This document shows positions 13,217-46,971 of a stretch of 64,000 nucleotides of DNA, in pieces. The translations under genes were made by a program, and so were the position numbers. Numbering within the stretch: the first letter of the stretch is position 1; every line of letters starts with the position of its first letter. Source of the DNA: Polytrichum commune (lineage: Eukaryota; Streptophyta; Polytrichopsida; Polytrichales; Polytrichaceae); the NCBI GenBank assembly GCA_950295325.1, contig OX485806.1:46309169-46373168 (forward strand). Reading direction: 5' to 3'. The notes beneath the pieces were generated by a model, which did no database searches, was not told the DNA's origin, and saw nothing but the letters and a program-made list of their open reading frames with translations.

Positions 13217-13249
13217 AATATCAATGTTGTGAAAGTCAATAGTTGTAAG

Positions 13250-21763: not shown

Positions 21764-22222
21764 ATGTAACCAACCGGATTTGAACATGGATTGGTCCAGA
21801 CCTAATACCAGTTTCTTAAACAACTCGCATCTACAGACGGATGTTCTAAAATCTAGTAACCACCTATATATTAACTAATCCTAATAACTAACTTCCTTGT
21901 GTTTTGTAAACCGTGGGCTTTAACTCAAACCGCGAGCGGTTTGAGTGGCTCACAATTATTTGTATAAGTAAATTATGAAGAAATTTTTGTCATCATTGAG
22001 GCGGGCGATCATTGGCCGTTAGATTGTCCTAAATATAACAAGAAAGAATACACTAAAAAGACATGACGAAACACCTATAGATTTTTGAAATGAATGGTAT
22101 GTATGAAAAAAATTTATTAAAAAAAAATATGGCAATATTTTTTTTATAAAAAAAACTTTAGAATGCAATTGTAGATCGGATGTCAAAGTTACCGAAAGAA
22201 TTACAGTTTCTAAGCTTTGGAA
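21764..22222 (-). repeat. Right arm of the inverted repeat, piece 2
   Basis: This is the reverse complement of about 3120-3583. It begins immediately after the gypsy LTR and ends at the TIR of the 24.7-kb transposon. It includes the short palindrome CTCAAACCGCGAGCGGTTTG, which is present in both arms. Confidence 0.85.
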
Positions 22223-22504
22223 TAAACACTATGTTCGGTAATTGGAGAATTTTTGTTGATTATGAGACTATGTAAGGACGCACTTTTCAAATTTGGACCA
22301 GTAATGACAACCTAAAAATCATATATGTATTATTTTGGATACAATTACTAGACATAAAGGAATGAACAAAAATATGAAACATACATGAAAATAGTTGCGT
22401 ATGAATGGAAGGGAAGATGCGGGGAATGATTGGAAATTGTTTGAATTCAATGGGATTGAAATAAAAATACTATGAATGTCTTGAATAACTCGAAATAGAA
22501 TAGA

Positions 22505-22787
22505 AAGCAAGCAGTAAATCGTACTTAGGGAGTCCGTCCCATTAGTACGATTCTAGTCCCACTAATCTGTCCCCACTATTATTTTTTCGCGGCCTTGTCT
22601 TTGTTTTTGGCAACCTCCATGGCTCTGAAAATCTCCGGCCCGCGGCTGTAACCATTTTTGTTGATGGGCCCGGAATATGTGTCGTTCTCCCATATTTTGG
22701 AGCGCGCTCCCGAATTGTACAAAGTGGGATTGTGAGTGGAATAAGAGTGCGTTTGCGAGAGGGAACGTCTTGCGCTTCGGCGGAGGG
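22505..22787 (-). other. GC-richer stretch cut by a solo LTR, no gene assigned
   Basis: With 23860-24437 this formed one GC-rich block before the LTR at 22788 entered. Frames on the - strand (22562-22826) are open but Pro/Arg-rich and resemble no family I know. The left margin has alternating ATTAGTACGATTCTAGTCCC-like phrases. Confidence 0.35.
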
Positions 22788-23854
22788 TGTGAACCCAAAA
22801 TTGATGCCCACATTGGTTGTTAACACTTGTAAAACATTACAAGTAGTGTTTTGGTAATTTATGAATATTCACAAAAATATAAAAAGAGTGAAGCTTGAAG
22901 AAAGCTTAGTTTGAAGCATTAGGCTTTTGTGGAGTGGATTTAAGTAGGAGAAGGACAAACCTTGGTAAAGTGTGGTAGGTAGAAAGCCAAGGTTAGTTAA
23001 ATGTTTGAATTAGGATCCTTGTTGATCATTTGAGGGAGGAATGCTTAGGAGATAGGATAAGAGCCTACAAAGTAGGAGGAAATATCGAGGGCTTATCGTG
23101 AGCCTTGAGGGTGCTCACCCCTCAAACTCACTATATAATCCCTCATTCTTCCCTCACTCATCATCTCTTTCCTTCGTGCTCCTTGACACTCCACGTGTTA
23201 TAAGTGTGGGTGCGTGGGAAGCAAGATAGGAGCACGTGTGTGTGCATGGATGTAAGGTTAGGAGCCAAGGCTAGTTGGCCTTGAAGAGGGCTTGACCTCT
23301 TGTTAGTAATAGTTGGGCGTGAATGATTTAAAGTTCAATTTATGGCTTTGTTTGAATACTTGGATTTACATTGATTAGCCTTATACTTATGCGGATGCGC
23401 AAAGTCTCTTACTGGAGCATTTAGTTTTGTTGGACTTCATATGAATTTTTGAGAGCCAAAAAACCGAGACTATGTCCAAATTTCCAAAAACTAGTGAAAA
23501 AGTGTAGGTTCAAAGAGAACAGCGTAGAATTGCGACCATATACTTTGTGGCAGTAGAAATATTATTGCATATTCATGTAGAGGACTTCATTACCTATCCA
23601 TGGATACCAAGAACTCATTTTTTGGACTTCATATGAATTTTTGAGAGCCAAAAAACCGAGACTATGTCCAAACTTCCAAACTTCGAGATTAAGGAGTGTA
23701 AGAAGACATAGTATAGACTTGGCTAAGTTGCGTATATTCCAACGATAGATTGGAATCATACATTGTCTTACAAAGACAGAAATCTTTACATGTCATTATA
23801 AACTTCTCCATTCGGGCTAGGACGAAATTGAAGGGTGGAGGTTTTTTGGTGACA
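22788..23854 (+). mobile_element. Solo LTR with target duplication GAGGG
   Basis: GAGGG occurs exactly at 22783-22787 and 23855-23859. The start TGTGAACCCAAAATTGATGC and the end region with GGGCTAGGACGAAATTGAAG, GGTGGAGG and GGTGACA fit the LTR family of 20283-21763. About 23060-23290 is close to parts of the LTRs at 25339 and 63075, including CTATATAATCCCTCATTCTT, a likely promoter region. It is a retroelement fossil. Confidence 0.85.
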
Positions 23855-25338
23855 GAGGGCCAAACAACGATCGGACTCGGATGATGCAGCCTTGAGAGCA
23901 TGCCTATCCAAGGAAGACGTGGAGGAGGGCCGGCCACCAAGAGGGTAGCCACCTGCGAAACAACGCCATAGGAAAATAAGAATAGGAATGGAGTGGGGAA
24001 AATAATGAGGGCGGTTTGGGATGGGCGCTCGTAAGGTTATCGGCACGCACATGCAAGTCAAAGAAAACAAATGCAGGAAAGGGGTTTTAGGGTTTGAGGA
24101 GGGAACCTTGGCTTTGGGGACGTCCATGTGGGGGACGGTGGGCACGAGGCGGGCGTCGACAAAAGCATCCGGGGCCGATCGCACTATGGCACTGTTGAAT
24201 AACGGGTCGGAATGGAGGCGCGGAGGGCCGACGATCGCGGAGGAGTCGGCGGGGGAGGTGTGGCACCGGGGGCCTTCCATGCGGAGACGTTGGCTTGGCC
24301 CCCGACGAGCGACGATGTCGTCCCTCGAGGGTGACATGTGTCCCAAACGAACGAACGTCCGTTTCTCCTTGAAGAGGGGGGATGTCGCAACCCTTGCAAG
24401 CTCCCTTAACAATCTTGCCAATTTTCGTTTCTAGCAAAGGTTACGAGCGCTAACCATTCGCATTCCGCCATGCTAATGGATAGCTCCTCTTACCCCGGAC
24501 CAATAGTTCATAGGAGGGAACCAACCCTCCTACTTTGCTTTCGGGACTCACCCCTTAATCGGTAACCCATTTCCCCAATGTGGACTTCCATCCATGGAAG
24601 TCCAATCCTATGTTGATCATCGCGCTGCCGGAGCAACACTACAACAACCCGAACCATACTAGGCAACTATGGCCTCACATTAGGCCAATGCAAATGGAGG
24701 CCGTGCCGTTCGGCCTCGGGTGGGTGAGGCCACACCACCTCACCCATATAAGCCTCTAGGACTCTACGCGGGGCCCCTACCCCACCGTCAACCAACCTCT
24801 TGTCTCTCTACCAAGAGTTGGGGCCAAGTGGACATTCTCCTTTAGCTGCTGGGCCTAGAACCCCCCAGCAGCTTCAGACCATCATAACTTCCTTGTATGA
24901 TGTCTGATCATAACAACCAACCACTCTATCTTCATCTACGCTTCACGTAGATGCCGATGGACTCCTCACTTGCCCCATTTGGGCAAGTCTTGAGGAAGTT
25001 ATGCCTGTTTGAACCTTGGCAGTCCCGGGAATCACTCCCAGGCACTGCTGTACCAGGGCGCTGTCCCGGGACAGCGCCCCACTCAAATGGCCATAACTCC
25101 TAGCTCACACCTCCGATTGAGGTGTTCTTGAGCATTCTAGAATCACCACGCCATGAGCTACGCATAGCTCATGGCCTTACCCTTGTGCCTCCTAGTCTTT
25201 GTGGGTGGGAGGCGTTCCCAACGCCCGGGGCCCTCACCCACACTAGGATCACTTGGGCCCTCTCACCAAAGGCGCCACAAGTCCCGGGTGTCACTCCTTG
25301 TGCCCATGGTGTTTCGGGCACTCCTCATGGAGAGGTGG
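23855..25338. other. GC-rich block of unknown origin inside the transposon
   Basis: This has much higher GC than its surroundings. An open frame on the - strand (24421-23786, 211 codons) starts MARLLRELARVATSPLFKEK but is low in complexity further on, and overlapping frames are also open, as expected of GC-rich DNA. At 24400-25334 there are phrases such as CCCGAACCATACTAGGCAAC that recur near the gypsy internal region (15330). This stretch may therefore be a retroelement remnant. There is a perfect 24-bp palindrome at 25056-25079. No gene is claimed. Confidence 0.4.
25056..25079. repeat. Perfect 24-bp GC-rich palindrome
   Basis: The core is GCGCTGTCCCGGGACAGCGC, extended by GG/CC on each side. 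Its function is unknown. Confidence 0.9.
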
Positions 25339-26808
25339 TCTGAGGCCAAACCCCCCACCCTTAAGCGTCCGTAGTCCGAGTAGTGGGTTTGGGCTCACAT
25401 TCCTCCGCGGTATTGGATTTGGACTTGGATGAGTCCATAGTGCAAGGTTCACCCTTCAAGTGGTCTTGGATTTAACTAGCTCCTTCATAAACCCAGCTCC
25501 TTCATAAACCCAGCTCCTTCATAAACCCAGCTCTTTACTTTCTAACTAAACAAACCCAGCTCCTTCATAAACCCAGCTCCTTCATGAACCCACAACTTTG
25601 TAGTTGTAATCCCCAACTACCTCACTAATTATTCAAGCCCTTAACTAATCTTCCTACCTAATTTCCCTAATTCTACTAACAACCCCTTTCTAATCACACA
25701 ATTCTTCTCTAATCCTAAAATCCTAAAATCCTAGAGAGGAGAGGGGGAGAGAGAATTTCCTAACTTCACTAAGACTAACTAATCCACACAAGTATATTTT
25801 TGCACTCATCACAACATCAAGTGCTCAACTCTTAAACATGGAACTTGCAACCACGTGTATTCAAAACATGAACTTTAAGTACCACAAATTGGAATCATGA
25901 ATTAACTTTAAAATCCTTCACGTCAACACTAATTCTACCAAGAGGTCAAGCCCTCTTCAAGGCTAACAAGCCTTGGCTCTCAAACTAAAAACTAAGCACA
26001 CACATGTGCTCCAATATGGCTTCCCACACCCACACTTATAACTCGTGGGGTGCCTTGGAGCACAAAGGAAAGAGAGGATGAGTGAGGGAAGAATGAGGGA
26101 TTATATAGTAAGCTTGAGGGGGTGAGCACCCTCAAGGCTCACGATAAGCCCTTGAGATTTCCTCCTACTTAGTAGGCGCCAATCCTATCTTCTAAGCCTT
26201 CCTCCCTCAAATGATCAACAAGGATCCTAATTCGAACATTTAACTAGCCTTGGCTTTCTACCTACCACACTTTACCAAACTTGGGATGCTTCAACCCAAA
26301 CTTAGCCTCCTTCGCTTTCCGCCGCCATAACTTTCTCCCCTTACTTTCCCAAATCGTCGCTCACCACTTAATTCAAACCACGATGCTTAACTCGTGATTT
26401 GATTGGTGCTTTGAGAATTTGCTTATCCTCCACCTTGCATTCTTCCTTGGGCCTTCCCCATTAAGTGGCCATGATGAGGTGGTCCACTTGTGCGCTCCAT
26501 GTGATCCTCCATTCATCCCAATTCGAATGCACTTGCCTCTTGAGTCACTTTGGTTGTCTCCATCCATTTGTAATAGCCTACTCACTAACTACTCAATCCA
26601 AGTTCTCCTTACCTATCCTCATTCACTCAAATCCTTCCGAAGGTAAAAACACAATAACAACTCACATCCTAGCCTCTTACAACATGGTACTTCTAAGACT
26701 AACATTTCACTCTTTTTATATTTTTGTGAAGTAACATGCTACTTCAAAGTGCATCAACTAACGTTTCAAGGGTCTAAGACTAAATGTGGGCACCCTTTTG
26801 GGCTCACA
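25339..26808 (-). mobile_element. Solo LTR (reverse) with target duplication GGTGG
   Basis: GGTGG is found at 25334-25338 and 26809-26813. On the - strand it begins TGTGAGCCCAAAAGGGTGCC and ends with GGACGCTTAAGGGTGGGG and a GGCCTC end. The first 900 bases are almost the same as 63075-64000, and a shared 70-codon frame differs at only one or two residues, so the insertion is young. The stretch 25478-25590 holds about six copies of CAGCTCCTTCATAAACC. Confidence 0.9.
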
Positions 26809-27300
26809 GGTGGAAATGACGATGCATTAAGGGAAATGACGATGCATTATGGGAAAAGACGAGGAATTGGGGAAAAAAGTGCAAGGAGATTTTGCTCAAT
26901 GGCACACTTGCGAACAAGCGTTCGTGAATGAGGGTTGCGGGTGGCGGTGCGCATTATTTACGAGCGCTCGTTCGTGAGCGCGGCTACACAAACATTTATG
27001 AGCGTTCATTCGTGAAGGAGGTGGACAAGGGGTCGCACCCTTTTACGAACGAGCATTCGTCAACGAGGTGGGTATGGAAGTGTAAAGATGCGCATGAACA
27101 TACACAATACAATATGCGATACGATACAAGAAGTTGGGGGGATGCGACATAGAGATCATCTGCTCATATATTAATTCGATGAATATTTACAATTGTCTCA
27201 CGTGATAATCTATCACAATTTCCTAAGGCAACATAATGCCGTGTCCTACAAAATTTAGCGGCCTAAGGGACCAGGTAGGAAAGGGTCCTCGAGGGCCTCG
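26809..27300. repeat. Palindrome cluster at the left side of the unknown gene
   Basis: Two copies of GGAAATGACGATGCATTA occur first. Four diverged copies of the ACGAACG-NN-CGTTCGT palindrome then lie near 26905, 26957, 26993 and 27040, spaced about 35-50 bp. No coding gene is apparent. Confidence 0.7.
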
Positions 27301-27309
27301 TGATGCCGA

Positions 27310-30300
27310 TGGAGAGGAATCACCAAGAACAGAACACGCAGGGGTTAGTGGTTACGAACGCGCGTTCGTCAAATGAATGGTATTCTCAGAGGAGAGTTAC
27401 CTCGTCATCGGGGGGAGGGGCAGCGACACTGGACCAAGCAGTTCCCTCCTCTTCGATTCAGGAACGCGCGTTTGTAATGTCCATTGGGCCACCCGCCTTC
27501 GTCTCCATGGCCTCTGCTGCACGCTCCGCCTGAGACGCCTGGGTCTGCTGGATGAGCTCCGCGTCTTCGTCTTCTCCGCCTAGGTCAAGAGTCTCCATGT
27601 GAACATCCTCCATCCGCGCGGAGGGATGTCGTTCCTGCTCAGGGTTCTCCACGTCCATTCTTTGGAACCCTGTCGCGTCATTGGGGTTCCCCTCCGTATC
27701 TTCCACAATGACCATGTCAGTGTGTTGCGCAGTGTCATTGCCCTGCCTACCCACTACCATGGGGACGACGGTGAATGAACCCGTGTCCGTCTCTGATGGC
27801 AGTCCTACTCTTGAAGGTGGAGGGGTGAAGAGTGCAGGACCTGAAGATTCACGGACGCGCATTCGTAAATCCTCATCCTCTTGGATGGCCGCCGCGACCG
27901 CATCGTGGGAGGTGGTCGCGGGAGTGCCAACAGGCGTAGGGTGGGGCACCTGTTGGTGGAAAGGCCCTCTGGGAAACATGCCTGGTGGGGGGGACTGGGA
28001 GGGATATCCTTCAGGGAAGGGATAGGCCGGCTGGGGGGGGCGCCAAGAAGTTCTGCATCCGACTGAGCATGGCAAGGATGGCGTCCGTCTTCGCGTTTGA
28101 GGCCCTTAGCTCCTCATGTATGATGGACTTCTTCCTCGCGTTCTCTTCTGCAGTCGCCGCCATGTCTCCTTCATCTTTTGCTCGAGTTTGGCGTTAAGCT
28201 CGGCAACTGACAGCGCCTCCTCTTTGACCCTCTTGTTCTTGGCAAAGTCCAGCCCCAGCTCGACCATGATCTCCATGTCGCCCTCATCCTCATCAGAGAC
28301 CTCGACGATGGCCCCCTCCGGCAACTCCACGTAAGGGGTCTTCTTCATCCTCCTCCTCGTGTTGCGGAAGAGGTCCAAGGACGGCCGGGAGCGTTGGTCG
28401 AGAAGATCGAGGTTGTCCATCTTAGGAACCATGAGATGGGGCATGGGCGACACGGAAGTCGAGCATCCCCCGGGAGTGCCGAAGGGCTCCGCTCCAGACG
28501 TTCGCGCGGAGAAGACATCTTGGGTTGTCCCCGCCGACATATCCACCTGGAGTCCCCTCCACGTTGGATGGATTTCCCACCGACGCCAACATTCGGAGCG
28601 GGGTGACGTCGAACAACTGGACAATGGCGTCCATGTTGGCGGATGGAACGGGCTCGTCATCGTCTGTCTCCATGACGGGTATGCCCTCGTCAACGGGCAT
28701 GTTGAATTCCATCCTGGGGACGGACATGTCACCTAGATCCACTGTGGACGCCTTCGTCTTGTGGAGCTTATACTCCTCCTTGTCGACGGCGTCAACGTAT
28801 GTGTTGACGCATAGCCCCAACATCTGGGAGACAGAACCAAATGTGTTAGCAAATACGAATGCACGTTCGTAAATATCAACACTACGGGGGAGACTACAGG
28901 GTGAAAAAAATCTATGACAACATATATCAACCACTGAACATTGCGCAGGCATGAAAAATGCAACATACATGGCTTTACGAATGAGCGTTTGTAAAGTTTA
29001 GTAGGAAAGCTTACCATTGCAGCGTACATAAATTTGCTGCATCCAAAGACGTTGTGAACTGTCTCTCCATTCATCGCCAATTCCCGCAACACAGTTACGT
29101 AGAACTCCAACCTGAGCTCCAACGTTGGGTAGACCATGTACAACGTTTCCTGCAGCAGCTCCTTGGGAGGGGGGTGAAGGATGCTATAAATCTTCTTGAA
29201 CGTGTTGTTGGCCTTGACAGGTGCTCATCCATTCCTCAGCGCATTGTACGTCAAGAAGATGAGGCTGACCGCTCCCACCTGCTTGTTGGCCTTGGCCTTG
29301 TTAATCGCCACGATCCCTTCCATCTTGGCAGGCACGTATGTGTTGTGGAATATGTTGTATTCAAATTTTATTGTCTCCTCGTACAGCTCAATGACAACAG
29401 AGACCTTCTCTTGTTCAACAATCCATAGCCACACGTATGGTTTCTTCATGGCTGGAGATTTGCACTCCATGAATTTCGCCATGAAGGGGTTGTAAAAGGG
29501 CACCCCCTTCGCCCCCTGTCTAGATGCACCCGGGATCCCCCTGAAATGGAGTATTGTGAAGGGGCAACCCCTGCGGTGCTCCCTGACCTCGGCCCTGCTG
29601 ATGGTGCCGTCCCACTTGGAGAATGTTGTCCACTCCAACCCGGTTGTGACCACACAAAATCTGGCGACGCCCTCGAATGTGGCGTTTCTCTTCCTCTCCA
29701 AAAACGGGATGTACCGCTGCAGCTCATTGGGTTTTGTCTCCGTCTTTTTGGCTTTTTTGTTGCCTTTGAGTTTCAAAACGGTGATGTGCTCTTTCACTAG
29801 GCTTCGCATCGAGGCCCCGTTGATGTTGTACAACGACTTGAACTCCTTCCATTTGGCCTAGTTGATGTCACCGTCGGCATGGAAGAGTTGCATTTCTGGC
29901 ATGAGACCGCTCAACTCCCACATCGCAACTGTCTTCATCTTCTTGTGGTCGCACCACTCCTTGATGGAGTATGTTCCGGGCTTGTGTTTGGGCCTCTTCA
30001 AAAAAATCTTGGGATATGGGATTGTTCTTCCCACTGTGTTTCCAAGTACATGAACCACCTAACGTTTCAATTCCGACTCTGTGAGTCCTTGCAGGGTCCT
30101 GAAGAACTCCCTTAGCAGTGGAGGGGCCTCTCCGGTCTTGTCTGCGCTGTATTTCTCCTCTGTGTTTCTCCTCTGTGTCGGGGTTGACGAGATCGTCTGC
30201 ATTGTGCGCGTCAAAAAATTGTGTCCACAACTCCCAAGTGTCCCTGTTGCAGCAAATGAGACGAAGCTCACCCTTCAGCTCCAGCACTGATTTTGTGGTG

Positions 30301-30640
30301 GTGGACTTCATGTTGATGGAGGAAAATTTGTCCACCATCGCATCGCAAAATGCCTACAATGCAAAACAAATGTGTCAGTGTTACACTAAAAACGAACGCA
30401 CATTCGTGAAATAGAAACTTCAGGAAAAATAAAAAATTTCACGAAATTTTATAAGCTCAAAAAAATTGAAATGCAGAGTGACCTTTACGAACGTTCGTTC
30501 GCTCGTAAACTTACCTTCCACTGCAAAGATTGGGTCTTTGCGTTCTCTCTCTCCATTGGCGGGCACCCATGTGCCACCCAGACATTGATGCACCCCGTGG
30601 GTCGTTCCCTTGCAATTTAGCTCAAGAAGACTCACGGTGA
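27310..30640 (-). pseudogene. Large multi-exon gene of unknown family, 3' part, decayed
   Basis: Reading leftwards, an exon ends near 30515 (CLGGTWVPANGERERKDPIF). A GT-AG intron (30514-30354) follows. The next coding stretch, 30353 to 29015, includes SVLELKGELRLICCNRDTWE, WCDHKKMKTVAMWELSGLMP, FVVTTGLEWTTFSKWDGT-like and KKPYVWLWIVEQEKVSVVIE phrases. A second GT-AG intron (29014-28824) leads to a segment starting MLGLCVNTYVDAVDKEEYKL, then an acidic and coiled-coil-like region (AELNAKLEQKMKETWRRLQK near 28180) and a Pro/Glu/Asp-rich tail to about 27460. Stops or frame changes interrupt it, so it is decayed. I recognise no domain. Higher GC and clean splice sites show it was a real gene. Copies of the ACGAACG palindrome lie in both introns and within the coding tail. 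Confidence 0.6.
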
Positions 30641-32990
30641 GACATCACGTAAATTTATATTCGCTTGAGAACTACCGTGCCTCATTAATATGTTCGGTAT
30701 CGAATTAATAATCCCTCTCTTCTCCTTATGATATGAATATAATTATTGGAGTGAACACAATCTCATTATCTTAATTCTTACTCTCAATGTAAGGCATCAT
30801 TGATAATAAGAATCATTAGATTTAAAGAAAGCTTCAAGAGGTGTAACAATATCCTTGATAATAATATAGTATTCAATAAATTGTATGAATCCTTAATGTT
30901 AGTAGTTCATAAACATTAATCACACAAATGATAATAATCTTATAATGATGAAGAAGATCTAATATTCTTGAGTCTTCCTTTTTAAGCTCAAGTGTTACTA
31001 CTTATAATATTGTAACTTGACATGTATGCATATAGTAGTTATAATTTCCTGAACACATCATTGATTGTTTTGCAATGTCACGTTTAACATTCAAAGTGTT
31101 TTAATGACAAGAATAATTATAACTCTCTTGAGGTTTATTCAAGAGGAAGATCTCCTTTTTTATTGTTAATGACATCCAACAACTCACAAAGTATCTTAAG
31201 AGAAAAAATACTTTTACTACAAAGTGTTTCTTGATGACGAGAAGATAAACCTATCTCTCTTGAGTTTTGCTCAAGAGAGAGAGATCTTCTCTTGAATAGA
31301 TAATCCTTCAAAATGTAATGACATCCAACAATTCACAAAGAATCTTAAAGTAAAAAGCTTCAATAACAATTGTAGTAAGTAATATTACTTCATTCATATG
31401 TATTCAAACTTTGATATGAATTAATGTCTTCATCATTCTTGTTAATCATAAGTTCAACAATCCATATGTAGTATAATATGTATAATACTTATAAGTCAAT
31501 TATGTAGTTTTCAATAATAAGCTCCTCCTCTTTTGAAGGAGTTGCATTCGTTAAGTTGTTTTGCTTAAATCATAACATGCATATAATTCTTCAATCATTC
31601 AATCACATGTATATTTATAATTCCCTTTTGAGGAGATCAATGATAAGTTCCGCTTTGAGAGATAATCTTGTTTCCTTCACTCAAGTTTGACAATCGCTTT
31701 CTTAATTCAATCATTCTCAAAGTTCCATTGATTCTCCAATTTGTCTTGAGTGCTTTGTTCTCACCCTCATACTATCTTTTGAGTTCTTTCTCAAAAGAGT
31801 CTACTCAATCTATTCTACTCTCGGTTGCTCAATCACATAAGCTACAAAGTACCATTGACGACTCATAGTTCAATTTGAGAGAGAGGTAGAAAGATCACAC
31901 GCATTTGTAGAAAAGATAATGTATTGCAAAAATGCTCCGAGAGGAGAGATACAAAAAACTTCAAGTGTTTTTGACATTCAAATTTAAGATAACTTCGTTG
32001 TATAGAAAATGAGGTATAGGTCTCCTAAAATGCTTCCCTTATATAGTCTTTCTTACTTGATTCAAAATCTATATCCGCGGAGTCCCAATCTTTCCTATCC
32101 TAGATAACTACTCATCTATGACATCCGTGGATCGTATCTATCAAAAAACGGTTATAACCGTCGAAGCTCTTATATGTTCCTATTATGGGAATGCCACTCT
32201 ATCTTTGTCGTAGCTACATATCGTGTATTTTTATAATATTTAGACAATGCTTACATCATGCTTTGATCTCATATTATGAAGTTCCATAAGATCTTCATAA
32301 TGTATAGAAATCATTCTTACATCATTCCTATATTCTACTTCATAATGTTTCCAAAATTCTATATTCCTATATTCGGCCATCATGCCTTTTTAATGGTCTT
32401 TAAAACCTCAACATCCTATATCCTAACATACTTCATTAATGCTTCTTCAAAATGTTTTCAAATCCCAATCCTAATTATTTCATAATGTCTCTAGCTCGGC
32501 CTTAAATTTCCTAAATTCCTCTTACTAATCCCTGGTAGTCCCAATATCATGTAAAAAGGTCTTATAGCCGCGCGTAAGCCTTGTGTTTCCGTGACAGGGT
32601 CTAAACCCATGAGTAGAGGCCCCTGAGGCCGTGGGTCCTATCTCCGTGACCGAGCCCTAATGCCAAGCCGTCGTCTTCTTCGGCCAGCTCCCGATCTTCC
32701 CGCAACCTGCTCCATTCTCCTACAGCTCTCCTTCTCCTCCTTCGACCAGCTCCCAATTCTTCTCGTAACCAGCTCCATTCTTTATACGGTCACGGCTCCA
32801 TTCTCTTTACGGTCACAGCTCCATTCTTCAGTTCCATTCTCCTTTTTGGATCCGATTCTGTCTCTTTCTAGTGCCTTTCAATTTGGCTTTCTAAGTTCCA
32901 TTATCTGCTTGTATGTTTGCTTTAATGCTAAGTTTTGCACTTAACAGACATTTCTTGCAGCCACTATGTTTGCTGCCCACAACGCCTCAA
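30641..32990. other. AT-rich block splitting the unknown gene
   Basis: This separates the two coding parts of the gene and differs from them in base content, so it is either a long intron or a later insertion. It holds a direct repeat (AATGACATCCAACAACTCAC at about 31167, near copy at about 31317) and a hairpin (TCTCTCTTGAGTTTTGCTCA at 31254, with AGAGAGAGA completing the stem). A CT-rich stretch at 32640-32850 repeats CAGCTCC and ATTCTC phrases. No gene is supported. Confidence 0.45.
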
Positions 32991-34176
32991 ACGTCTTTAT
33001 CTTATTACCGGAATTCAAAAAAGTTGAAATCTTTTGGAGCTTGTCCCAGTCGTACGACCACACGAGGAAGGCCTTCTAGTAGCACAAGTCCGCCTTCAAC
33101 TTGTGCTGGAAGTTATCGCCTTTCAAGATGATTTGCGACGCCTCTAGGTTGTGTTGTCAATCTATGATCCAGAACTCACCATTCTGGATCCGGGGCCAAT
33201 CTTTTTCAGTCGGATGGGATGCGAGGCCCTTCGGCATCACGCAGACGGTCATCCTGTACCACTTGACGTTGTTCATCAAATTGTTAATTTGCCACTTCAC
33301 ACCCCCACTCTCACGAGACCTAACCATCCACTTGTTTGGCGATTTCTTGCACTTGAAGCAGTCTACGTTGAATGTAAAGTACCTTCCCATGGGCCAGCAA
33401 TCCTTTGAATAATTGTTGAAGTCTCTCAGGATTCTAGTAGCCTTCACGGCATTCGGATTTTCTCCCTTCTTCGAAGGGGTTGGCATTACGGGAGGCGAGC
33501 TCACCTCCGCCATCTCTGTTACTCCTGACTTCTCCATGTCATCCCTTGACCTTTTTGACAGCGTGGATTGTCTGTTGGGCCCCTCTGTCAGCCTGCTCAC
33601 GGATGGCACATGCCAGGGTGCACTTCTCGAACTTCCTGCACCGGATGCAGACAGTTTTCTTGGACTCTTCTTCTTCTTATTGGCCATTGCGACCACACTG
33701 TTGTACTTGGAGATGTTCAATGCCAAGGCCGTTAGCTTCCTCGTTGTCTAGTATTGGCTCAAAGCGAACTTTGTGAAGAGACCGTGCAAGTCGAAATGTT
33801 TGGCATCTTCTCCTACAGTCAGAATGGCGTAATTGTGGGAGAAGGAGTTTTCCAGGGAGTGCAACAGGAGGTTGATGTGGTCCTTTTTGTTTCTCATGTC
33901 CAAAATGACGTCATCTCCCTGGGCCTTTATTGACTATATTTCCCATGTCTTCATCTGCACCCATTGTTCTGGCTGGTCCGTTTTCGTCTCCAGCTCGTAG
34001 GTGAAACGCAGGACAAAGCGACCGTCTTCAATTTTCTCTGGGAGCGCCGTCCACACCCCCATGAAGTCGTCCTTTGGGACGTAATTGTCGTTGGCGTTTG
34101 TGTCCAACACTGACTGTGGCAGGTTGTCCACCTGCACCGCGAACATCTCAATGGCACTCCTGGTTGATCTAGCCAT
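32991..34176 (-). pseudogene. Large gene of unknown family, 5' part
   Basis: The likely start is at 34176 (MARSTRSAIEMFAVQVDNLP), 30 bases from a palindrome copy at 34208. Coding then continues leftwards through FVLRFTYELETKTDQPEQWV, a Ser/Lys-rich basic linker (KKKKSPRKLSASGAGSS near 33660) and a well-conserved-looking domain with DCWPMGRYFTFNVDCFKCKK, then WQINNLMNNVKWYRMTVCVM, then GEFWIID near 33160. It ends at about 32995, next to a possible donor GTAATA. The CFKCKK pair could bind metal, but there is no full zinc-finger pattern. The gene is interrupted in several places. It is probably the upstream half of the gene at 27310-30640, as base content and style agree and both are on the - strand. 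Its function is unknown. Confidence 0.55.
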
Positions 34177-34204
34177 CTACACAATGACATACACTTTTAG
34201 TAAA

Positions 34205-34680
34205 GTATTTACGAACGTTCGTGAGTGAGTGATATCACCAGGCCGCAGGCATTATTGTTTGCATTGTGGTTTTGGTTGTATAACATAACATTCATTCATA
34301 TATTTGATCTAGAAGCTTTTGATCATATTTACAAACGATCGTTCGTAAATAGGTGTTTTGATCGGTTAAATTTACATTTCACACTCTCACGAACGTGCGT
34401 TCGTAAGATTGGGTATTTTGTTCTAATTATTTCATAGTGATGGTGTTTTTATAACTATGACAGTATGGTGGTGTATAGGTTGGTGTTTTCCAGCGTATTT
34501 TACGAACGCGCGTTCGTAAAGTTCTGGATTTGTGCTTTGGATTTAGGGTATTTACAAACGCGCGTTCGTAAACTCCTTCACTTGTGCTTTGGGTACGGGT
34601 ATTTACGAACGAGCGTTCGTAAAAAGGAATTGGGTCAAACGATGTATTCGCATTTACGAACGATTGTTCATAAATGTGGC
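34205..34680. repeat. Palindrome array upstream of the unknown gene
   Basis: Seven copies of TTACGAACG-NN-CGTTCGTAA lie at about 34208, 34328, 34388, 34499, 34551, 34602 and 34653. The last four are spaced 52, 51 and 51 bp, and the spacers share TGTGCTTTGG. The copy at 34499-34520 is a perfect 22-bp palindrome. The position just upstream of the gene start suggests a binding array, but this is an inference. Confidence 0.9.
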
Positions 34681-35499
34681 TGGTTTGGTTATTTTCTCAC
34701 ATATTGTCCGTACATATACGTATTCGTATATATATGAATACATATATGGTGGACTGTGATTCTTCCTTTGAAGAATGCTTGCAAGTGCTTGGTCAAAACG
34801 ATTAAATTGAACAAAAAATAAAAATCACAACAGAATTGAGCTTCAGAATGATTTATTAAAGCTCATATTGCATGCAAAACCTGCCAAAGCTCATAATTCA
34901 AACAAAACAAATGGAAATCAACAATGAACCAATTCAGGATATAGGTTGTGAGTGTAGAAGGATTATTGTACTCACATTGAAGTGTTCTACAACAAAAATT
35001 GTTCTTCCCTTGCTGAAAAAACCACACAACAACACACAAATCTACAATGCCTGTTGTTGAGATGCGTCTTTGTACCACTCACTCCTTCACCACACTTTCA
35101 AACCCTCACTCTTTATGTACAAACCCCTAGCACCTATTCTGGTGTAGCTACAAGCTTCAAGCTTCAAGCTTTCAAACCCCAATATTCAAACTCCAGCTCT
35201 ACTAACAATCTTGCAACCCTCAAGCTCTCTACTCACAATAAGTCACCTCTCAAGCGAAATATGCAACTCAAACACAACTTGAAGCAATATAAAATAAGGC
35301 AGACTAAAATCTGACAGAGCTTCGCTCCGAATATTCTAAGCTCTCCTCTCCTCCTCTCTTTGTTCCAAATGAGAATGAGGAGAAGAGAGAAGGGGCGTGG
35401 GGTGGTAGCCGGCGCCGTTAGGGTTTCCCCACGGCTACCACGTGGCTTCGTGCCAATGGCGACGGTCCATTGCCGTCATTCCAATGGCAACGTTCCACG

Positions 35500-35690
35500 T
35501 GGCCTGTGGGGGGATGGGGGGATGAGGGGATGAGTGCATATGGGTGATGGGTGGAGATGGGTGATGGGGAATGGGGAATGGGGAAAATGGGAGCACGTGG
35601 CATGGGGAAATGGGGGGATGGGAGAAATGGGAGGAGATAGGATGGGGACATCGGGGGATGGGGGGAAATGCGATTGGAAATGGATGTACA
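35500..35690 (+). repeat. G-rich GGGATGGGG minisatellite
   Basis: Many GGGG runs separated by 2-6 bases make a strong G-quadruplex candidate on the + strand. The C-rich complement yields spurious Pro/His/Ser frames. Confidence 0.75.
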
Positions 35691-36526
35691 TGTAATGAAG
35701 GGGGGCGTAAATCATATGTATATGTATATGTATAATATGTAATGCAAACATTAATCACATTAACTTTAAAAACTTAGTATGAAGACATGAATTTTGTATG
35801 TCGTATGCCCTTAGTACATTTACAATTGGATTCCTTGTAAATATATTTTCAAAAATAACCTTAAGTTAATTTGTATTGCACAATGTATGTCATTTAGTGG
35901 GTTGTCGATGAAGAATCCACCCCCAAGGATATGTATATGGTGTTCTGCAGTATAGAATTTTCATGAACGAGATAACTTTAAGGTTGAACTATGGTTCTTG
36001 AAATATATATTACATAGTACATAAAGGACCCAATTTGTGATTGTTGAGAGGGGCTATTCATTTTCTTACAAGAGGTGGAGGAAAATTCAATCTATAATAG
36101 GACGTCAACTCATTTAATTGGGCGTCAACTTGAACAAAAAATTGTATAGTGCATTGAACTTTAATTTTCAACAATGATGTAATTGCATTTAACCAATGAG
36201 GCATATGGTCAGATATCTTGCTAGCATCAAATGTATGTCATAGGTTTTCAATGAAGAATACACCCCTAAGGATGTGTATATGATGTTTTCAAATATAGAG
36301 TTTTCGTAAACAAGATATCTTTCAATTTGGACCATGTTTTTTCAAATAAATGTTACATTCATAAAGGACCAATTTGAGATTGTGTAGAGGGGCTACCATC
36401 ACTGTGAGCTTGTCATAAATTAAGTTAGTGCGATACGGGTTTTTAGGAGTCAATATTGTTTGTGTGTGTAATATATCGTACTAACGACCAAATCCTAAAT
36501 CCTAAACCACATACACAACTATCACA

Positions 36527-36560
36527 AACCTTAAACCCTAACCCTAAACCCTAAACCCTG
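36527..36560 (-). repeat. Interstitial telomere-type repeat (CCCTAAA)
   Basis: About four to five units (CCTTAAACCCTAACCCTAAA then CCCTAAACCC) are preceded by degenerate ATCCTAAATCCTAAACC at 36492. This is the Arabidopsis-type plant telomere motif read on the complementary strand. It is too short to be a chromosome end. Confidence 0.85.
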
Positions 36561-37278
36561 CATCCCTACATCTTTTTTATCCTACCAACATTTCTCAATA
36601 TATGTGGCCATGTTGTGGTCTATGGGCATGTCAAAATGATCTACCGATGTTAGTTGGATTGGAAATTGCTTTATTCAGTTCCCAATAACTATAATAATTC
36701 AGAATCATGCCAATTGTCATTTTGAGATTCAAAATTAATAGATTTCGGGGAAAGCTTTGGTTCGGGTGAAAAGTGAGTGTTGAAATGGTCCATCTTTCCC
36801 CTTAATACTGTTGAGTGCTATTTGATCACACAATCCAAACTTAATCTCATTATAACATGCATGTCTTAAGACTTTAGTTTAAATCAACATTTTTATCTAT
36901 GAGCATGCACATACTTCTCGTAAGATGTAAAACACATAATTTTAAGTGTGACTTGTCGTAAGTATGATTTCATTTCTTATGATTAATCTATCATATTGAC
37001 CATTCCAAATTAATTAAACATTTTCACACATGCTATTTTAATTCATTATTTTCATACCTAGGGTTACATTTGAATTAAGTCCTAACTTACATCTAGGCAT
37101 GATTAGATTCATATTATCCTCAATCTACCCTAGTACAAGCCATTATGGATTAACCCATCTTTTTAATGGTTTTCACACATTTGTGAGCATATTACGGGCA
37201 TGTTTCGATGTGAATCATATGATCATCCCTATAATTTTAGGGGCCTCCACAACATGTTTTACCCAAGTTTACCTTATT

Positions 37279-37309
37279 GTGTGTGTGTGTGTGTGTGTAC
37301 ACACACACA
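37279..37309. repeat. (GT)n(AC)n palindromic microsatellite
   Basis: About ten GT units run directly into about five AC units with a central GTAC, so the DNA can fold into a hairpin. Confidence 0.9.
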
Positions 37310-37819
37310 ATCACATACATTCATAACATATATTAGGTCTCTATTGTCAATTAATTTGGACTTCACACCTTGGTCGTAAATCATTTAATATTCTGTATTG
37401 ACCAACATCATATTATGATATTATGTATCTATTATATACATATTTATATTCATGAGACCTTGGTAACACCTAAGGTTTGCGACCGATTTACATATTTTCA
37501 ATATCAAGTTGCGTGCATGCAATACATGTTCCTTACATAATGTTATTTATGTAATTGCGCATAGATAGAATGTCATACTGGTAGGTCAAAGTAGGCGGCG
37601 GGAATCCTCTTTTTAAAGAGCATCCAAGGATTTTTGAACCACCGTAGAGAAGTTTTTAAAGCTCTTCCCCCCACCGCAAAGCTATTTTCTGCGGCACACG
37701 CCGTGTGCGCTCTAGAAACCCGATAGAGTGCGCGGAAGCCATTTTCGTGTGCGCCAACCCCACACCTCCCAGGTACACGACAACCTGCACACCCCGCATA
37801 TACCGCCATAAATACCGGA

Positions 37820-39035
37820 AGTTTACGAATGCGCATTCGTAAAGCACACGATCTCGCACTTATATTATAAATGGGTCAGAGAAATAATGGTGGGTAGTTT
37901 ATGAACGTTTGTTCGTAAGTACCATATAAGAGCATAGTCTGCGTTCAGAGAGCCATATATATATACATATATATATGGGTAGTCACTGATATACGAACGC
38001 GCGTTCGTAAATATGCCAACCATCATCATAAAAATATATGTCTGTTATTCGACCATTCTTCCTTTTTCTCCAAATGCATATAGGATAGATGGGAATTTAC
38101 GAACGTGCATTCATAAAGACCACATGGGATTATTGTCCACGCATGCAACAACATCATTCATTGACGTCTATGCAGACTTTCAATATGGCAGCTATATGCG
38201 AACGGACGTTCGTCTTTCCCACACGGCCATTTCAACCGTATACTCTTAGATTCTCCAAATTTCCGAACGTGCGTTTGTAAATACCACCTGGGAGTATGAC
38301 CGCCGCATCCAACAATATACTTATAAACAAACACATTCCTGCATATAACCACACAGTACGGCAAAGAACTTACATACGCACGTTCGTAAATATGTCGTTC
38401 CCTGATTCACAATGGAACGTCGGGATGTGGTACAACCTGTCATTTGCCCTGATAGACAGGGTGGCATGTCTTCAGATAACGTATGGCCTGAGTTATCGAA
38501 ATTGCGACGAGTCCAAGTGTTTTTTACATATACTGTTTTAGCAAGAGCTTACGAACAACCGTTCGTATACATAACCGCCGCAAACATATGTGGGGGGTGT
38601 ACACACTACCCTTTATATTTCCCATCTGGGACTCTCTTTATCTTTACGGTGATCGACATGCATATTGTAGTGTGCAGACGACTATTATGTCTTCCACCCA
38701 TATCATTCGGAAGGTTCCTATAGTTATGTTTATTGCATGCGAACAAAGTCGTAAATATGAATATTGGGTGCTCCTCAAAATTGCGTATTCCATTTTCCAT
38801 GTACATTTCATCATTAATTGGGTTAAGTTTTTTGTCCGCGCGTTCGTCTACAATTGTGAATAACGTGTCCTTTGTTGGTGTGCAACCCTCGCCATGTTTG
38901 CACAAATCATATTAACACCCTTTACGAATGATATATATCTCAATGTGATGCCGGTGTCAATTGCCATGGGATTCCCCTACAGTGTTTCCATGTCTTTGTA
39001 TTATTTTCGAACGTGTGTTCGTCTTTGTGTGTGAG
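37820..39035. repeat. Second palindrome array, right side
   Basis: At least nine readable copies of the ACGAACG-NN-CGTTCGT palindrome lie near 37822, 37898, 37990, 38096, 38196, 38260, 38369, 38548 and 39006, with weaker ones near 38740, 38834 and 38920. Spacer text also repeats: ACCACATGGGATTATTGTCC at 38120 and ACCACCTGGGAGTATGACCG at 38284. The array is thus built from longer diverged units of about 160-180 bp. No gene is present. Confidence 0.85.
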
Positions 39036-39046
39036 GGCCTCCCATT

Positions 39047-40552
39047 CACTACAAGAAAAAAAATGGTTTTTAGTACAATGTTTTAGCAGGCATGTGCTAA
39101 TTGGACCAACATTTCATAAAAAAAAGAAATCTACATGTTCCTAGTATAAGTGTTGGAAAATAGTCATTGTTGACACATTCACGCCCCGATATTGTTTATA
39201 GGACAACTCACATCAACATCAAACAATTTGCCCAATTGATTGTGTGAATTACGGTAGGTAATTTTTAGGGCGTATGTGGAAAATCATGTACACAATAAAT
39301 AGTAGACAATTTCCACTATATAATAAATAAAAGACCGTTAATAATAAAATATTATATTATAAATAGTAAATAAGAATAACATCATAAATAGAAATAATAT
39401 AATGATAAATATCAGACAATAAATAGTAAATAATATACTATATACATTACATAAAAACAACATATTAAAAACAATAAATAATATACTATATAAAGTATAT
39501 AATAATAAAATACTATAAATAATAAACAGAAGACCATTTATATTACTAATATACTATAAATTTTAAAAATTGAATATCAGACCATAAATATTAAAAAATA
39601 ATAAATACTAAAGTATATAAAATACATAATAATAAAATAATAAACATCAGACCATTAATAGTAATAATATATTATAAATAGTAAATAGTAAATATAATAC
39701 CATAAATAGTAAATAATATACTATATACAGTAGATAATAATAACAACTTGAAAATAATATATAATATATATAATAAATAATGTAAAATACTATAAATAAT
39801 AAATAATATACTATGAATTATGAATAATAGGTAGTACATAGTAAATATGAGGCAATAAATAGTAGACAATAGGAAGTATACAACAAATATTGAACAATAA
39901 ATTATAAGCAGTAAATAATAGACACTAAATAATATATGCCATATATAGTAGATATTATATTGTATACAATAACTAAAAAATAAATAGTAACTTGGGGCCT
40001 TTATACAAATGTTTTAAATACTTCTAAAATATCATGCGCAGAGTGGTGGCTTAGTGGCTGAGGCCTCTATGTGGGAACCAAGAGATTCAAGGATCAAACC
40101 CCTTGGCCCTCCGCCCTTGGCTTAGCCTACTAGGTAAGTGGCTAGGCACTTAGAACTATAGGTGTTTATAGATGGCAAGGCTCGGGAGGTGAGGATTGGA
40201 CTTACTAATGGTGGATATCTCTTTTAAATGGCACTCATTTGTTAAAAAGTAGGACCACTCATTATTCAACATATCAACCAATGATAGCCCTACACATGCA
40301 TGCACGCTTTAACGTTAAGTAATAATTTAATGTGGAGCCCGTAGAATAATTAGTATATTCAGACATCATAAGCAATGGTCCTAAACATATTGGCTATGTC
40401 CAAATCAACGATTCATGGGGTGTAGGGCATGGTCCCCCAAGACATGTCGTAGACAACACAATTTCTAGTAATATATGATATTAAGTCACGTCTTCGTTTA
40501 CTTCAATAAATATCATGTTACATGTCTAGATTGTATACAATCTCTAGTAGTG
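39047..40552 (+). mobile_element. Non-autonomous CACTA element, 3-bp duplication ATT
   Basis: It starts CACTACAAGAAAAAAAATGG, the classic plant CACTA terminus, and ends CAATCTCTAGTAGTG, whose reverse begins CACTACTAGA. ATT is found on both sides (39044-39046 and 40553-40555). The interior (39300-39990) is almost pure A/T with TAAATAGTAAATAAT repeats and no transposase, so it depends on an enzyme from elsewhere. A SINE-like unit lies in its right half. Confidence 0.85.
40036..40230 (+). mobile_element. tRNA-derived SINE-like unit
   Basis: An A-box-like TGGCTTAGTGG at 40047-40057 and a B-box-like GATTCAAGGATC at 40084-40095 are spaced about as in tRNA genes and plant SINEs. The head GCAGAGTGGTGGCTTAGTGG followed by CTGAGGCC is typical of plant SINE heads. 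The 3' end and target duplication could not be fixed. Confidence 0.55.
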
Positions 40553-40635
40553 ATTGGTGTCCCAAAAGTTGTTTGTAAGTTCTGGGCCATATATTTAGAC
40601 AGATAATTTGTGCGGTCTTCTAAACATTACGATGG

Positions 40636-41714
40636 TTGTTGTTTGTTCATGCGATGGTTGTTTGTTTAAGTACAATGGCGATGCATGTGGGAGATATTTC
40701 ATTGGAGTTGTCGACTAATGCATCGTCCTCCGATAGTGAATGCGAACTATCTTTCATGTCGGCGGACGGTACTGACGTTACAAACGTGGTGGGGGTACCT
40801 GTGGATACATCCTCCCATGAGTCTTTTGAAGGGTACGAACAATCTCTACATTCCGAGGATGACCACGATGACATTCCGTTGTGCGTGAATTTTGGAAGAA
40901 AGTAATGGGTGGGCCTTGATGTCGTTCTACTTAACAACCTTGGTGTCCCGGTGGCAAATGGCATATGTAGAAACTCCAATCCCCGTGACTGTGTTGATGC
41001 CAACCCCCTCGGTGCCGATGATGTTGGTGTGTGCATCTTGAATTCTTTGCTTCCACTTGAGGTTCCGGTGACCTGGAGATTTTCCTTGCATCGATGGCCC
41101 CTTCGTCGAGTTCTACATGAAGAAGTAAGCTTGTGGGATCATGGGCGGCGGCACAAACAAACGTAATCAGCTTTGTTGGCCAAATTACCTCCTCGCAAAG
41201 GCCTCCGCAGATATGATTTTAACCGCGTGCCTCGCGGTGATAAGGAGCGATGACGGGATTGCATATTGGGAGACGATTCTATCCGTCTCGTGTCCGCCAA
41301 GGACTGTTGCGCGAAGAAATGTTGCCAATTCTTTCCACGCGAAAAAATTAGGTCTCTTCGTCAAGAGATGTGGCTTGCGGATTTTCGTATGAGATCTGCA
41401 AATAAACTCGAGGTCCACAAAAATTTGCACATTGATACCCATGACTATAAGGTGGTGACCCTTGAGAATGTGGAAGTGTGTTGTACAGTGTGGTATATCA
41501 TCCATGTTGTTTCCAAGGCTGACTTTTATAGGTTTAGGAAATATTCATCGATGGGTCGACGCTCTCGATTTCATGGCAACTCGGGCACAAAGAAACCTAG
41601 GGAGGCTACACTTCAAGCCTCTGCGACACTCTCCACCATCATGGTGTCATTGGCCGATGCAATGCCCTACAAAACGAGGACATTGTCATCAGGGGAGAAA
41701 GTTGTTCAAATGGT
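40636..41714 (+). pseudogene. DUF7869-like transposase-like gene, segment 1
   Basis: The N-terminal part includes an acidic Ser/Asp-rich region (40680-40900, LSTNASSSDSECELSFMSAD). After a poorly readable stretch comes a coherent frame at 41270-41710. It holds two Cys motifs (KDCCAKKCCQFFPREKIRSL), EMWLADFRMRSANK and a basic segment (RFRKYSSMGRRSRFHGNSG) and ends at KVVQMV, where an LTR has entered at 41715. Cys pairs before the core are common in plant members of this family. In-frame stops and at least one frame change show it is broken. It continues at 43016. Confidence 0.55.
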
Positions 41715-43015
41715 TGTGAGCCCAAAATGGTGCCCACATGAGGTATTAACCCCTTGAAACCATTAGGAGTTACATTTTGATGTTTTATGATTATTCTCAA
41801 AAATATAAAAAGAGTGAGGCTTGGTGTGAAGTTATGTTTAAGCCTTAGGCTTATGTGGTGTAGTTAATTAGAAGCTTAGCGGCATGAAGGAAGTTCTTTG
41901 GTTAGGTGAGTGTAGCATGTGGTGGACCAAGGGGAGCTCCTTGAGTTTAAATATTTGAATTGGGATCCATCTTGTTGGTTTAGGAGTTGAAGGCTTAGCG
42001 GATAGGATAAGAGCCTACGAAGTAAGAGAGGATCGAGGGGCTTACTTAGCGGATATGATAAGAGCCTACGAAGTAGGAGAGGATCGAAGGGCTTATCTTG
42101 AGCTTTGAGGGGTGCTTACCCCTTCCCCTATATATTCTTTTCTCTTACCTTCTTCACTCACTTGTGTTCCTATTCACTCTCTCTCCCTTCGCGCTCTTCC
42201 ATCTTGCGCGTGTGGGTGCACACATGTATGTGGGCACATGAGCATATTGTATTGAAAGGGGAGCGTGGGTAAAGGGGAGAGGTTCATACAAGGCCTCCTT
42301 ACCCTCTACCTTCCCCTCTCCTTCTCTATCTCTCCCTCTTGTTGTTCCTCTCATAGAATTGAGTTTTAGAGTTAGAATTGTGTGGGAATTAGTAGAAGGT
42401 TAGTGGAATTAGTAGAATTCATAGAGACTTGTAGGGGACTTAGTAAGGTTAAGTGTAGTAGTTGGTTGAATTAGTTGATAGGCAACTGATTTGATACTTA
42501 AGCCATGGGCTAAGACATAATTGATAGTTGGGTTAGGCTAGTGGAGTTAGGCTAATTGGGATTAGGCTAGTTGGATTAGGCTAGTTGGGGTAGGGGCCGC
42601 ATTAAGGAATGAACTTGGAAAGGGTTGTGAGGGACTTGTGGAAGAGGAGGCGATGATAAGTGATATAAGTGTTTTTTAACACTTGTGTTAGAGACTTATG
42701 TGCCTCATGGAGCCGACAAGCCATGGCCTCAACAAGATCACGAACACTAATGAGAAAACATTGGCCAAGACCAAGGTTTCAAGAGGAAAATCCTCCAGGG
42801 CATGTGTAGCCAAGGCTGTAGGGTGGACCCTTGAGAAGGCCAATGCTCTACCTATTCAAGATACTAGCATTAATAAAGCATCATGATTTCAAGTGAGTTG
42901 GAAGCTTGTTGAGATGGAAGTACATTCCATGTTACTACGAGCTTTGGTATGACACATGTGATTCTCAAAACCATTACCCGGACTAGGACGCTTAAAAGTG
43001 GTGGGTTTGGCCTCA
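41715..43015 (+). mobile_element. LTR inserted in the transposase-like gene (first)
   Basis: It begins TGTGAGCCCAAAATGGTGCC and ends around CATTACCCGGACTAGGACGC, then TTAAAAGTGG and GTTTGGCCTCA. Gene sequence resumes directly after it. About 42035-42090 holds a short internal direct duplication (AGCGGATATGATAAGAGCCT, near copy 50 bases upstream). ATGGT precedes it and ATGTT follows a few bases after its end, so the duplication is not clean. It belongs to the family of 20283-21763. Confidence 0.8.
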
Positions 43016-43773
43016 TATAAATGTTGCCTACGGGCATAAAATGAAAGAACATATTAACGGGCATCAACGAAGGGGGCCGCATAGCGGGATGTGGGCCCAT
43101 TTTTTTGTCCAAATTGGATGTGATTAAAAACCAACAGTTTGCGGAATACATTTTGAAGAGACCCGAGGATAAGTTCGCCAGGTGTACAACGTTTGAAAAA
43201 TACAAAGGTCTTCGAGATGCCCACCCCATAGGCACAAAATCTCATACCAGACACCAGACAAAATATATTGAGCATATCAACAACCAAGAGGCACACCGTC
43301 AATATTACTACAAGAATTGTGCTCTATCCACAATAAAACCCACAGAGGTTCTAACAATCATCCTTCATAAAATGGACCACGCCAAGACCGCATGCCCTTG
43401 TTATGCACGCAAAATAAAGGCCACGGATGGTCTCTTCAAGTTACACGTAGTTGTCACATGTTTGTATGAAATCACAACTAGGTGTTGAAAGTCTATCCAA
43501 TTTTCTTGGATGTGTTTGGCATATGTCCAACTCCATACATCTGTTTAGTGGTTATTTCATATTTTTGTTCACGCATCGTTTGTTTTTTCCAGGTATGATT
43601 GTCCACGGCCATGGGGACGTTAAATATGGCCATTATGGTCTGGATTTTTACCCTGAAGATGCTAACCACACGGTGGGTTCATTTGCAAAACTCTTGCGCG
43701 ATCTTAAGAAGCTATCGGTACATTCTTCTCGTGCACTTTTTGATGGTTGTGGAACGACACCCCTTTATGAGGT
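43016..43773 (+). pseudogene. DUF7869-like transposase-like gene, segment 2
   Basis: The frame at 43105-43488 reads SKLDVIKNQQFAEYILKRPE, then HPIGTKSHTRHQTKYIEHIN and ALSTIKPTEVLTIILHKMDH. The last phrase fits the region before the catalytic core in DUF7869 proteins. A probable intron lies near 43480-43592 (ends TTTTTTCCAG). Coding then continues GMIVHGHGDVKYGHYGLDFY and SFAKLLRDLKKL until the second LTR at 43774. Confidence 0.6.
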
Positions 43774-46572: not shown

Positions 46573-46971
46573 ACATAACGTAGGTGGGAGTTAATGGCGA
46601 AAAACATGGGCGTGTGCTTACTCTTGGTTTTTAATAGACATAGTAGACTTGCCACATTCAATTGTGGCATACGATTGGGATGTGCCATCCAATTCCATAA
46701 GACCCTTAGATATGGGATGCGCACCCTAAACTCTATAATGACATAAATTCATTTGTTTTTGAGATTCAATTGTTATTTTTCACATGAAGTTCATGTTTTC
46801 ATTATAATTCAATGGCTTGCTATTTTTAATACTTTGAATATTCTCCACGTGCGAATTCATAATTCGTCATGTTCCTAATGTTCCGTATGCTCACAATATT
46901 GGCATCCCAAACTATGGGCATATTTTATTTTGAGACTTTCCAAAGTCTCCGATTAACGAATATAGTGTTAA

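Follow-up and report, generated by a model that had tools for sequence, protein, structure and literature searches.

The window analysed here is a 64,000-nucleotide stretch of contig OX485806.1 from Polytrichum commune, with all positions counted from its first letter. It contains a decayed DNA transposon with two broken genes, which encloses an array of palindromes sharing a 22-base-pair (bp) word. The transposon, its genes and the long terminal repeat (LTR) sequences nested in it are as follows.

22225..46969, no strand: DNA transposon of 24.7 kb with nested insertions, enclosing the array and inserted into one arm of an older inverted repeat (junctions 22223 and 46970)
22221..22224, no strand: apparent left target-site duplication AATA, equal to 46970-46973
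46970..46973, no strand: right target-site duplication AATA
22225..22248, plus strand: left terminal inverted repeat AACACTATGTTCGGTAATTGGAGA
46946..46969, minus strand: right terminal inverted repeat AACACTATATTCGTTAATCGGAGA
22788..26808, no strand: nested sequence of an LTR retrotransposon, bordered on either side by an LTR start
27458..34176, minus strand: broken gene AB, without convincing family match and candidate source of the binding protein; open frames with in-frame TAG/TGA stops
~32930-34176, 30515-30640, 29015-30353 and 27458-28823, minus strand: exons of gene AB, borders by eye
28824..29014, minus strand: probable intron GTAAGC...CAG of gene AB, with palindromes 28852 and 28974, one by each splice site; borders by eye
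30354..30514, minus strand: probable intron GTAAGT...TAG of gene AB, with palindromes 30389 and 30484, of which 30484 follows GTAAG immediately; borders by eye
40624..46572, plus strand: broken DUF7869 gene, candidate transposase, with PF25273 matches; one gene from pieces, 40624 approximate
~41715-43020 and ~43774-45235: solo-LTR-like insertions in the DUF7869 gene, borders by eye

The element interrupts an older inverted repeat, the left arm of which (1807-4574) is nearly continuous in a self-comparison of the window while its partner is split into four pieces (50183-49872, 48008-46970, 22223-21763 and 15326-14505). Both edges of the gap 22223/46970 match the same letters of the left arm, 3125-3127, indicating an insertion with a duplicated target. 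The edges of the element read ...TTTGGAATA then AACACTATGTTCGGTAATTGGAGA..., and ...the reverse complement of AACACTATATTCGTTAATCGGAGA then AATAGCGG..., and the unoccupied paralogue arm reads GGAATTGCGG near 3123 on the minus strand; the best fit to this paralogue is a 4-bp duplication, AATA; the 3-bp reading AAT would require unequal ends. The 24-bp terminal repeats begin with AACACTAT and are identical at 21 of 24 positions, a level reached by 3 of 2,000,000 random pairs, and the outer ends are CACTA-like (AACACTATGTTCGG.../AACACTATATTCGT...), with CACTA two bases inside the AACACTAT ends. Inverted alignment of the end pieces beyond the outer 24 bp scored 46 against a shuffled maximum of 45, so that the terminal repeat is taken to end at 24 bp. 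No 8-mer in the terminal pieces exceeds three copies with both strands counted, and with no palindromes there either, a subterminal repeat array is not seen.

Two other candidate termini were rejected. An inverted repeat at 26707/41817 has arms that both look like LTR starts (TGTGAGCCC...) of one retrotransposon family. The sequence CACTACAAGAAAA at 39047, about 20 bp past the last palindrome, is presumably a canonical plant CACTA end; it faces right, with the array behind it, and comparison of its first 200 bp with the window gave no inverted partner scoring higher than the best shuffle.

The DUF7869 gene is identified by an unbroken frame at 45155-45532 that matches PF25273 (E-value 3.9e-28, 98.8 bits) and by a read-through translation, P0003, matching the same family at 2.1e-34 (119.2 bits, cut-off 26); it contains at least one in-frame stop, between 45532 and 45536. 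This is the sole convincing Pfam match in the larger frames of both genes, which were the ones scanned. Gene AB is damaged by several TAG/TGA stops, frame changes and one 13-bp duplication. Parts A and B probably form one gene, as we infer across 30645-32930, which is probably another insertion between them.

The initial annotation described an array of palindromes with a 16-bp core, ACGAACGNNCGTTCGT, at 27 positions between 26905 and 39030. The core stands, and alignment of the sites showed that it lies within a longer conserved word, the 22-bp palindrome TTTACGAACG-NN-CGTTCGTAAA, in which outer TTT...AAA flank the core; this longer word, the clustering of the sites and the reach of the element beyond 26905-39030 had been missed. 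The sites are grouped as follows, together with the two introns above.

26907..27063, no strand: palindrome cluster with sites 26907, 26957, 26995 and 27042
27351..27478, no strand: two palindromes, 27351 and 27457, at the 3' end of minus-strand gene AB, 27457 over its last codons
27848..27869, no strand: palindrome in the coding tail of gene AB, from 22-bp scoring and frames
34208..34674, no strand: cluster of seven palindromes that precedes the first ATG of gene AB, with sites 34208, 34328, 34386, 34499, 34551, 34602 and 34653
37822..39025, no strand: cluster upstream of the DUF7869 gene, with sites 37822, 37898, 37990, 38096, 38195, 38260, 38369, 38548, weak 38829 and 39004

Scoring the window against the 22-bp consensus revealed 27 places with at least 15 of 20 letters, all within 26907-39025 and each within 4 bp of a position listed in the initial annotation, compared with a mean of 0.05 such places in 20 Markov-shuffled windows. 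The core with up to three mismatches gave 31 matches against 0.55 expected and a maximum of 4 among 100 shuffles. Among the 210 anagrams of the half-site, the true one yielded 31 matches (runner-up 10, median 1). When 1,500 half-sites were sampled from the window itself, the top 12, which had 33-56 matches and were the only ones listed, were all A+T-only words. Within 26910-39022 lie 29 of the 31 core matches, a few being overlapping registers of one site. The earlier statement that the motif occurs nowhere else in the window thus holds for all 27 strong places and not strictly for the core, the other two matches of which are overlapping registers at 24347-24366 with one and two mismatches. 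This isolated match (ACGAACGAACGTCCGT, 24344-24366), inside the nested retrotransposon part, scores 13/20 in the 22-bp form, a score at which nine places are expected. Lowering the threshold to 14/20 added three places, 30488 (an overlapping register), 38829 and 21830 (outside the region), with 0.9 expected per window; in the 22-bp form, neither 21830 nor 24347 scores much above what chance would give. The 28 sites counted below are the 27 places plus weak 38829 (14/20), with overlapping registers dropped.

Across the 56 half-sites each of the seven core letters is retained in 47 to 53 and the outer TTT in 41 to 47, whereas outside the 22 bp conservation drops sharply to a weak A (31 of 56 half-sites) and then nothing clear. 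The centre dinucleotide is free (CG 8, AG 4, TT 4, TG 4, CA 3, AT 2, CT 1, GA 1 and AC 1). Dyad symmetry with fixed half-sites and a varying centre supports the earlier comparison with the site of a dimeric protein, the sharp drop in conservation and the free centre being as for a dimer on two half-sites. The only sequence shared outside the 22 bp is a 52-bp local tandem duplication (34499-34623), which multiplies sites. With a recognition word and little else in common, the palindromes behave as sites rather than copies of a mini-element, which argues for protein binding.

The sites are predominantly non-coding: 26 of 28 centres lie outside exons, which make up 33% of 26809-39046 (P 0.0014, with exon borders set by eye and differing by a few bases from those listed for gene AB). 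Five sites (26907-27351) lie beyond the 3' end of gene AB and seven directly upstream of its first ATG, the closest about 30 bp away. Palindromes also adjoin the splice sites of both introns and enter the coding tail at 27848, as reported before. The cluster at 37822-39025 counts as upstream of the DUF7869 gene after 39047-40620 is set aside as probable insertions, comprising a CACTA-end fragment, an A+T-rich stretch and a piece resembling a short interspersed nuclear element (SINE). With nested insertions counted, the array begins about 4.7 kb from the left end of the element and ends about 7.9 kb from the right end.

Relatives were sought in collections of viral and genome contigs, among which, as far as we know, the genome of the source organism is not included. 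The exact 16-bp core occurs in 98 viral-contig stretches, the 80 listed carrying one palindrome each; the exact 22-bp form is absent from the viral contigs and has two single matches in the genome contigs, both bacterial records. Neither two DUF7869 pieces nor two gene AB pieces had a relative in the viral contigs, nor did one gene AB piece among phages. The literature searched on transposon superfamilies and palindromic transposon motifs held no description of this array that we met, and the name DUF7869 was absent from the papers of the literature library searched.

One of the closest parallels to this arrangement is found in Arabidopsis, where VANC anti-silencing proteins belong to VANDAL21 and VANDAL6 elements and where VANC21 binds non-coding parts of its own VANDAL21, introns included, via a dense short motif (PMC5735166; PMC10398659). 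The likeness extends to a dense short motif within one element, mostly in non-coding DNA including introns and intergenic parts, and to the multiplication of sites by tandem duplication. The words themselves differ, the VANDAL word being given there as a 9-base directional YAGTATTAY and that here being a 22-bp CpG-rich palindrome. The present element also has CACTAT ends and DUF7869, with no Mutator-type transposase (VANA) in the scanned larger frames of both genes, and anti-silencing is here an analogy.

Given an anatomy shared in several respects with VANC21 on VANDAL21 and a poorer fit to the TnpA arrays of CACTA elements, we propose an element-encoded dimeric protein. We tentatively prefer, without holding it with confidence, the explanation that the array is a self-recognition address, at which such a protein would control the expression or silencing of its own element in a VANC-like manner. 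The two divergent genes of the element would have been DUF7869 on the plus strand, its product probably the transposase, and AB on the minus strand, the most likely source of an element protein that may have bound the 22-bp palindrome as a dimer. Dense sites upstream of AB, in its introns, on its 3' side and upstream of DUF7869 would let this protein mark its own element only, and the marking might keep the element expressed or unmethylated, as VANC proteins do on VANDAL transposons. We count the confinement of all 27 strong places to one insertion, against 0.05 expected per window, in favour of this explanation. Also in its favour are the sharp drop in conservation outside the 22 bp, the free centre, the non-coding placement, the site about 30 bp from the first ATG of AB, the 85 of 112 motif CpGs that are intact and the local multiplication of sites by the 52-bp duplication. 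Binding, the origin of the protein in the element, its identity with AB and its effect on expression or silencing are what we infer from this arrangement.

Several observations weigh against a self-recognition address of this kind. In this copy, the single one examined, one core position is altered in both halves of a site against 1.8 expected; there is no excess of matching changes and thus no sign of symmetry being actively kept. Of the 40 core substitutions, 25 are CpG transitions, and the sites of this copy have thus decayed like methylated DNA. The observed/expected CpG ratio is 0.58 for the window, 0.55 left of the region and 0.42 right of it, and reaches 1.83 and 1.3 in two palindrome clusters with their sites included; with sites masked, three clusters fall to 0.87, 0.58 and 0.78. 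The bulk of the cluster excess is therefore the sites themselves, and as the exons of the element (0.74 and 0.87) are not below the masked clusters, which they resemble, special protection from methylation is not demonstrated. VANC21 motifs share one orientation, which a palindrome does not have, and VANC also binds terminal regions, whereas 22-bp scoring found no palindromes in the terminal pieces here (22225-22784 and 46573-46969), nor in the DUF7869 gene and its probable intron near 43460-43592.

The putative binding protein presents a further difficulty. Gene AB had no convincing Pfam, NCBIfam or PHROG match in its larger frames or the read-through P0002, and no DNA-binding family was matched among the larger frames scanned. 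Sequence searches of the PDB gave no match or only E-values above 0.1, none convincing for gene AB, and single-sequence structure models of two of its parts (predicted local distance difference test score, pLDDT, about 31) were meaningless and unused for fold search. One stretch of gene A, IID-x-QHNLEAS (x being a stop) followed by VWSYDWDKLQ at 33000-33170 on the minus strand, resembles a ParB-type motif, although P0002 matched no ParB-family domain in Pfam, NCBIfam or PHROGs, a result that would miss a domain altered by the read-through or missing from these libraries. Bacterial ParB binds as a dimer to parS, palindromes of about 16 bp that occur densely, a likeness in site architecture that, together with this motif, serves as a lead only.

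The ownership of the array is a separate question that fits any function. Conceivably, though this is the less probable arrangement, gene AB together with the array makes up an element of its own (~26809-39046) nested in the DUF7869 element, which would also count against the address as we have framed it. All strong sites lie between the retrotransposon border at 26808 and the CACTACAAGAAAA end at 39047, the DUF7869 gene body and the outer ends are free of them, and the absence from the outer ends is the main point against ownership by the DUF7869 element. However, no inverted repeats or duplication were seen by eye at the borders of such an element, no other inverted pair of at least 40 nucleotides was found in 24000-42000, and each border coincides with the end of another insertion. 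The sites likely belong to the DUF7869 element rather than to a second, nested one.

A TnpA-like role, in which an element protein on the palindromes pairs the ends or assists excision as at CACTA subterminal repeats, is unlikely. The soybean CACTA element Tgmt* (20.5 kb) has subterminal repeats able to form palindromes, CACTA TnpA arrays are subterminal, and TNPA-like binding proteins show little mutual similarity (PMC2613891). The present element is CACTA-like (En/Spm) in terminal repeats that start (AA)CACTA, in its large size and in having a repeated motif whose presumed reader is an element protein without recognisable family (TnpA/TNP1, here putative). The comparability with CACTA arrays suggested in the initial annotation finds support in the inverted repeats at the element ends and none in the placement of the sites, which are internal, kilobases from both ends, and leave the terminal pieces empty. 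The apparent target duplication is moreover 4 bp rather than 3, and no tnp2-type transposase was found in the scanned frames, the scan covering part of the frames. Chapaev elements of the CMC superfamily are characterised by 3- to 4-bp duplications and 5'-CAC...GTG-3' termini in an account of animal elements (PMC4079192). The present element shares both features and differs in two extra As outside CAC and in its gene, DUF7869, the comparison being by description only.

Slightly less probable still is that the palindromes are operators without a silencing or transposition role, serving the simple autoregulation of the AB and DUF7869 genes through a transcription factor of the element or the host; the clusters upstream of both genes would suit this, but about 27 sites, including those in introns, the coding tail and the 3' side, seem far beyond what an operator needs. 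A role at the RNA level, with palindromes folding in introns and aiding splicing, is very improbable, for although one site lies near each end of both introns and most shuffled versions of intron 30354-30514 fold less well than the intron itself (z -2.3; 3/200 as good), intron 28824-29014 shows no such lead (z 0.27; 120/200 as good) and 24 of 28 sites lie outside both. The dispersed palindromic mini-element that the initial annotation offered as its other option, copying itself into the region, is the least credible of all, since its support, a palindrome inside the coding tail at 27848 and another on the last codons at 27457, is outweighed by confinement to one region, no common flank outside the 22 bp except in the one tandem duplication, and exact 22-bp matches in the contig collections limited to the two bacterial records.

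Further repeats lie in and around the element. At 22788 the nested retrotransposon sequence reads TGTGAACCC, and its right border, 26808, is the last letter of a reverse-complemented TGTGAGCCC, both by eye. Its segment 25883-26808 is 99.8% identical, in inverted orientation, to 63075-64000 (926 bp), where the second copy runs off the window, and LTR starts of this family, which was probably recently active, also lie at 22788, 43774 (by eye) and 63075. No clear 5-bp duplications were seen when looked for at the flanks of LTR insertions. The older inverted repeat has arms of about 2.8 kb that are 91-95% identical, one of them broken by three probable insertions, and an inner part at ~4575-14504; it is possibly a large terminal-repeat or foldback element. 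Ty3/gypsy-like pol pieces lie on the plus strand at 16006-20222, inside the split arm between 15326 and 21763, with a clear match to RNase H of reverse transcriptase (5.7e-19) and weak integrase matches below the cut-off. An A+T-rich degenerate repeat array of about 0.7 kb occupies 39293-39990, and 40041-40110, judged by eye, is what we take to be a possible tRNA-derived SINE head; ARAGORN found no tRNA there, and the window contains no Rfam or tRNA match. Degenerate internal repeats at 7289-10375 have frames that read as His/Thr/Ser-rich simple repeats.

Sequence-specific transposon anti-silencing has been described for VANDAL elements. It is a speculative and rather unlikely extension of the self-recognition address that the array represents a second, independently evolved self-recognition or anti-silencing system, in a non-Mutator, DUF7869-type transposon, with a palindromic CpG-rich 22-bp address, a new dimeric DNA-binding protein in AB and methylation of the address possibly serving as a switch. 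If true, this strategy would have evolved more than once, its second lineage differing in transposase domain, relying on an orphan protein and using a palindromic address, and targeted epigenome control would gain a new protein-DNA pair. At minimum, DUF7869, a domain of unknown function, gains a mobile-element setting with defined ends.

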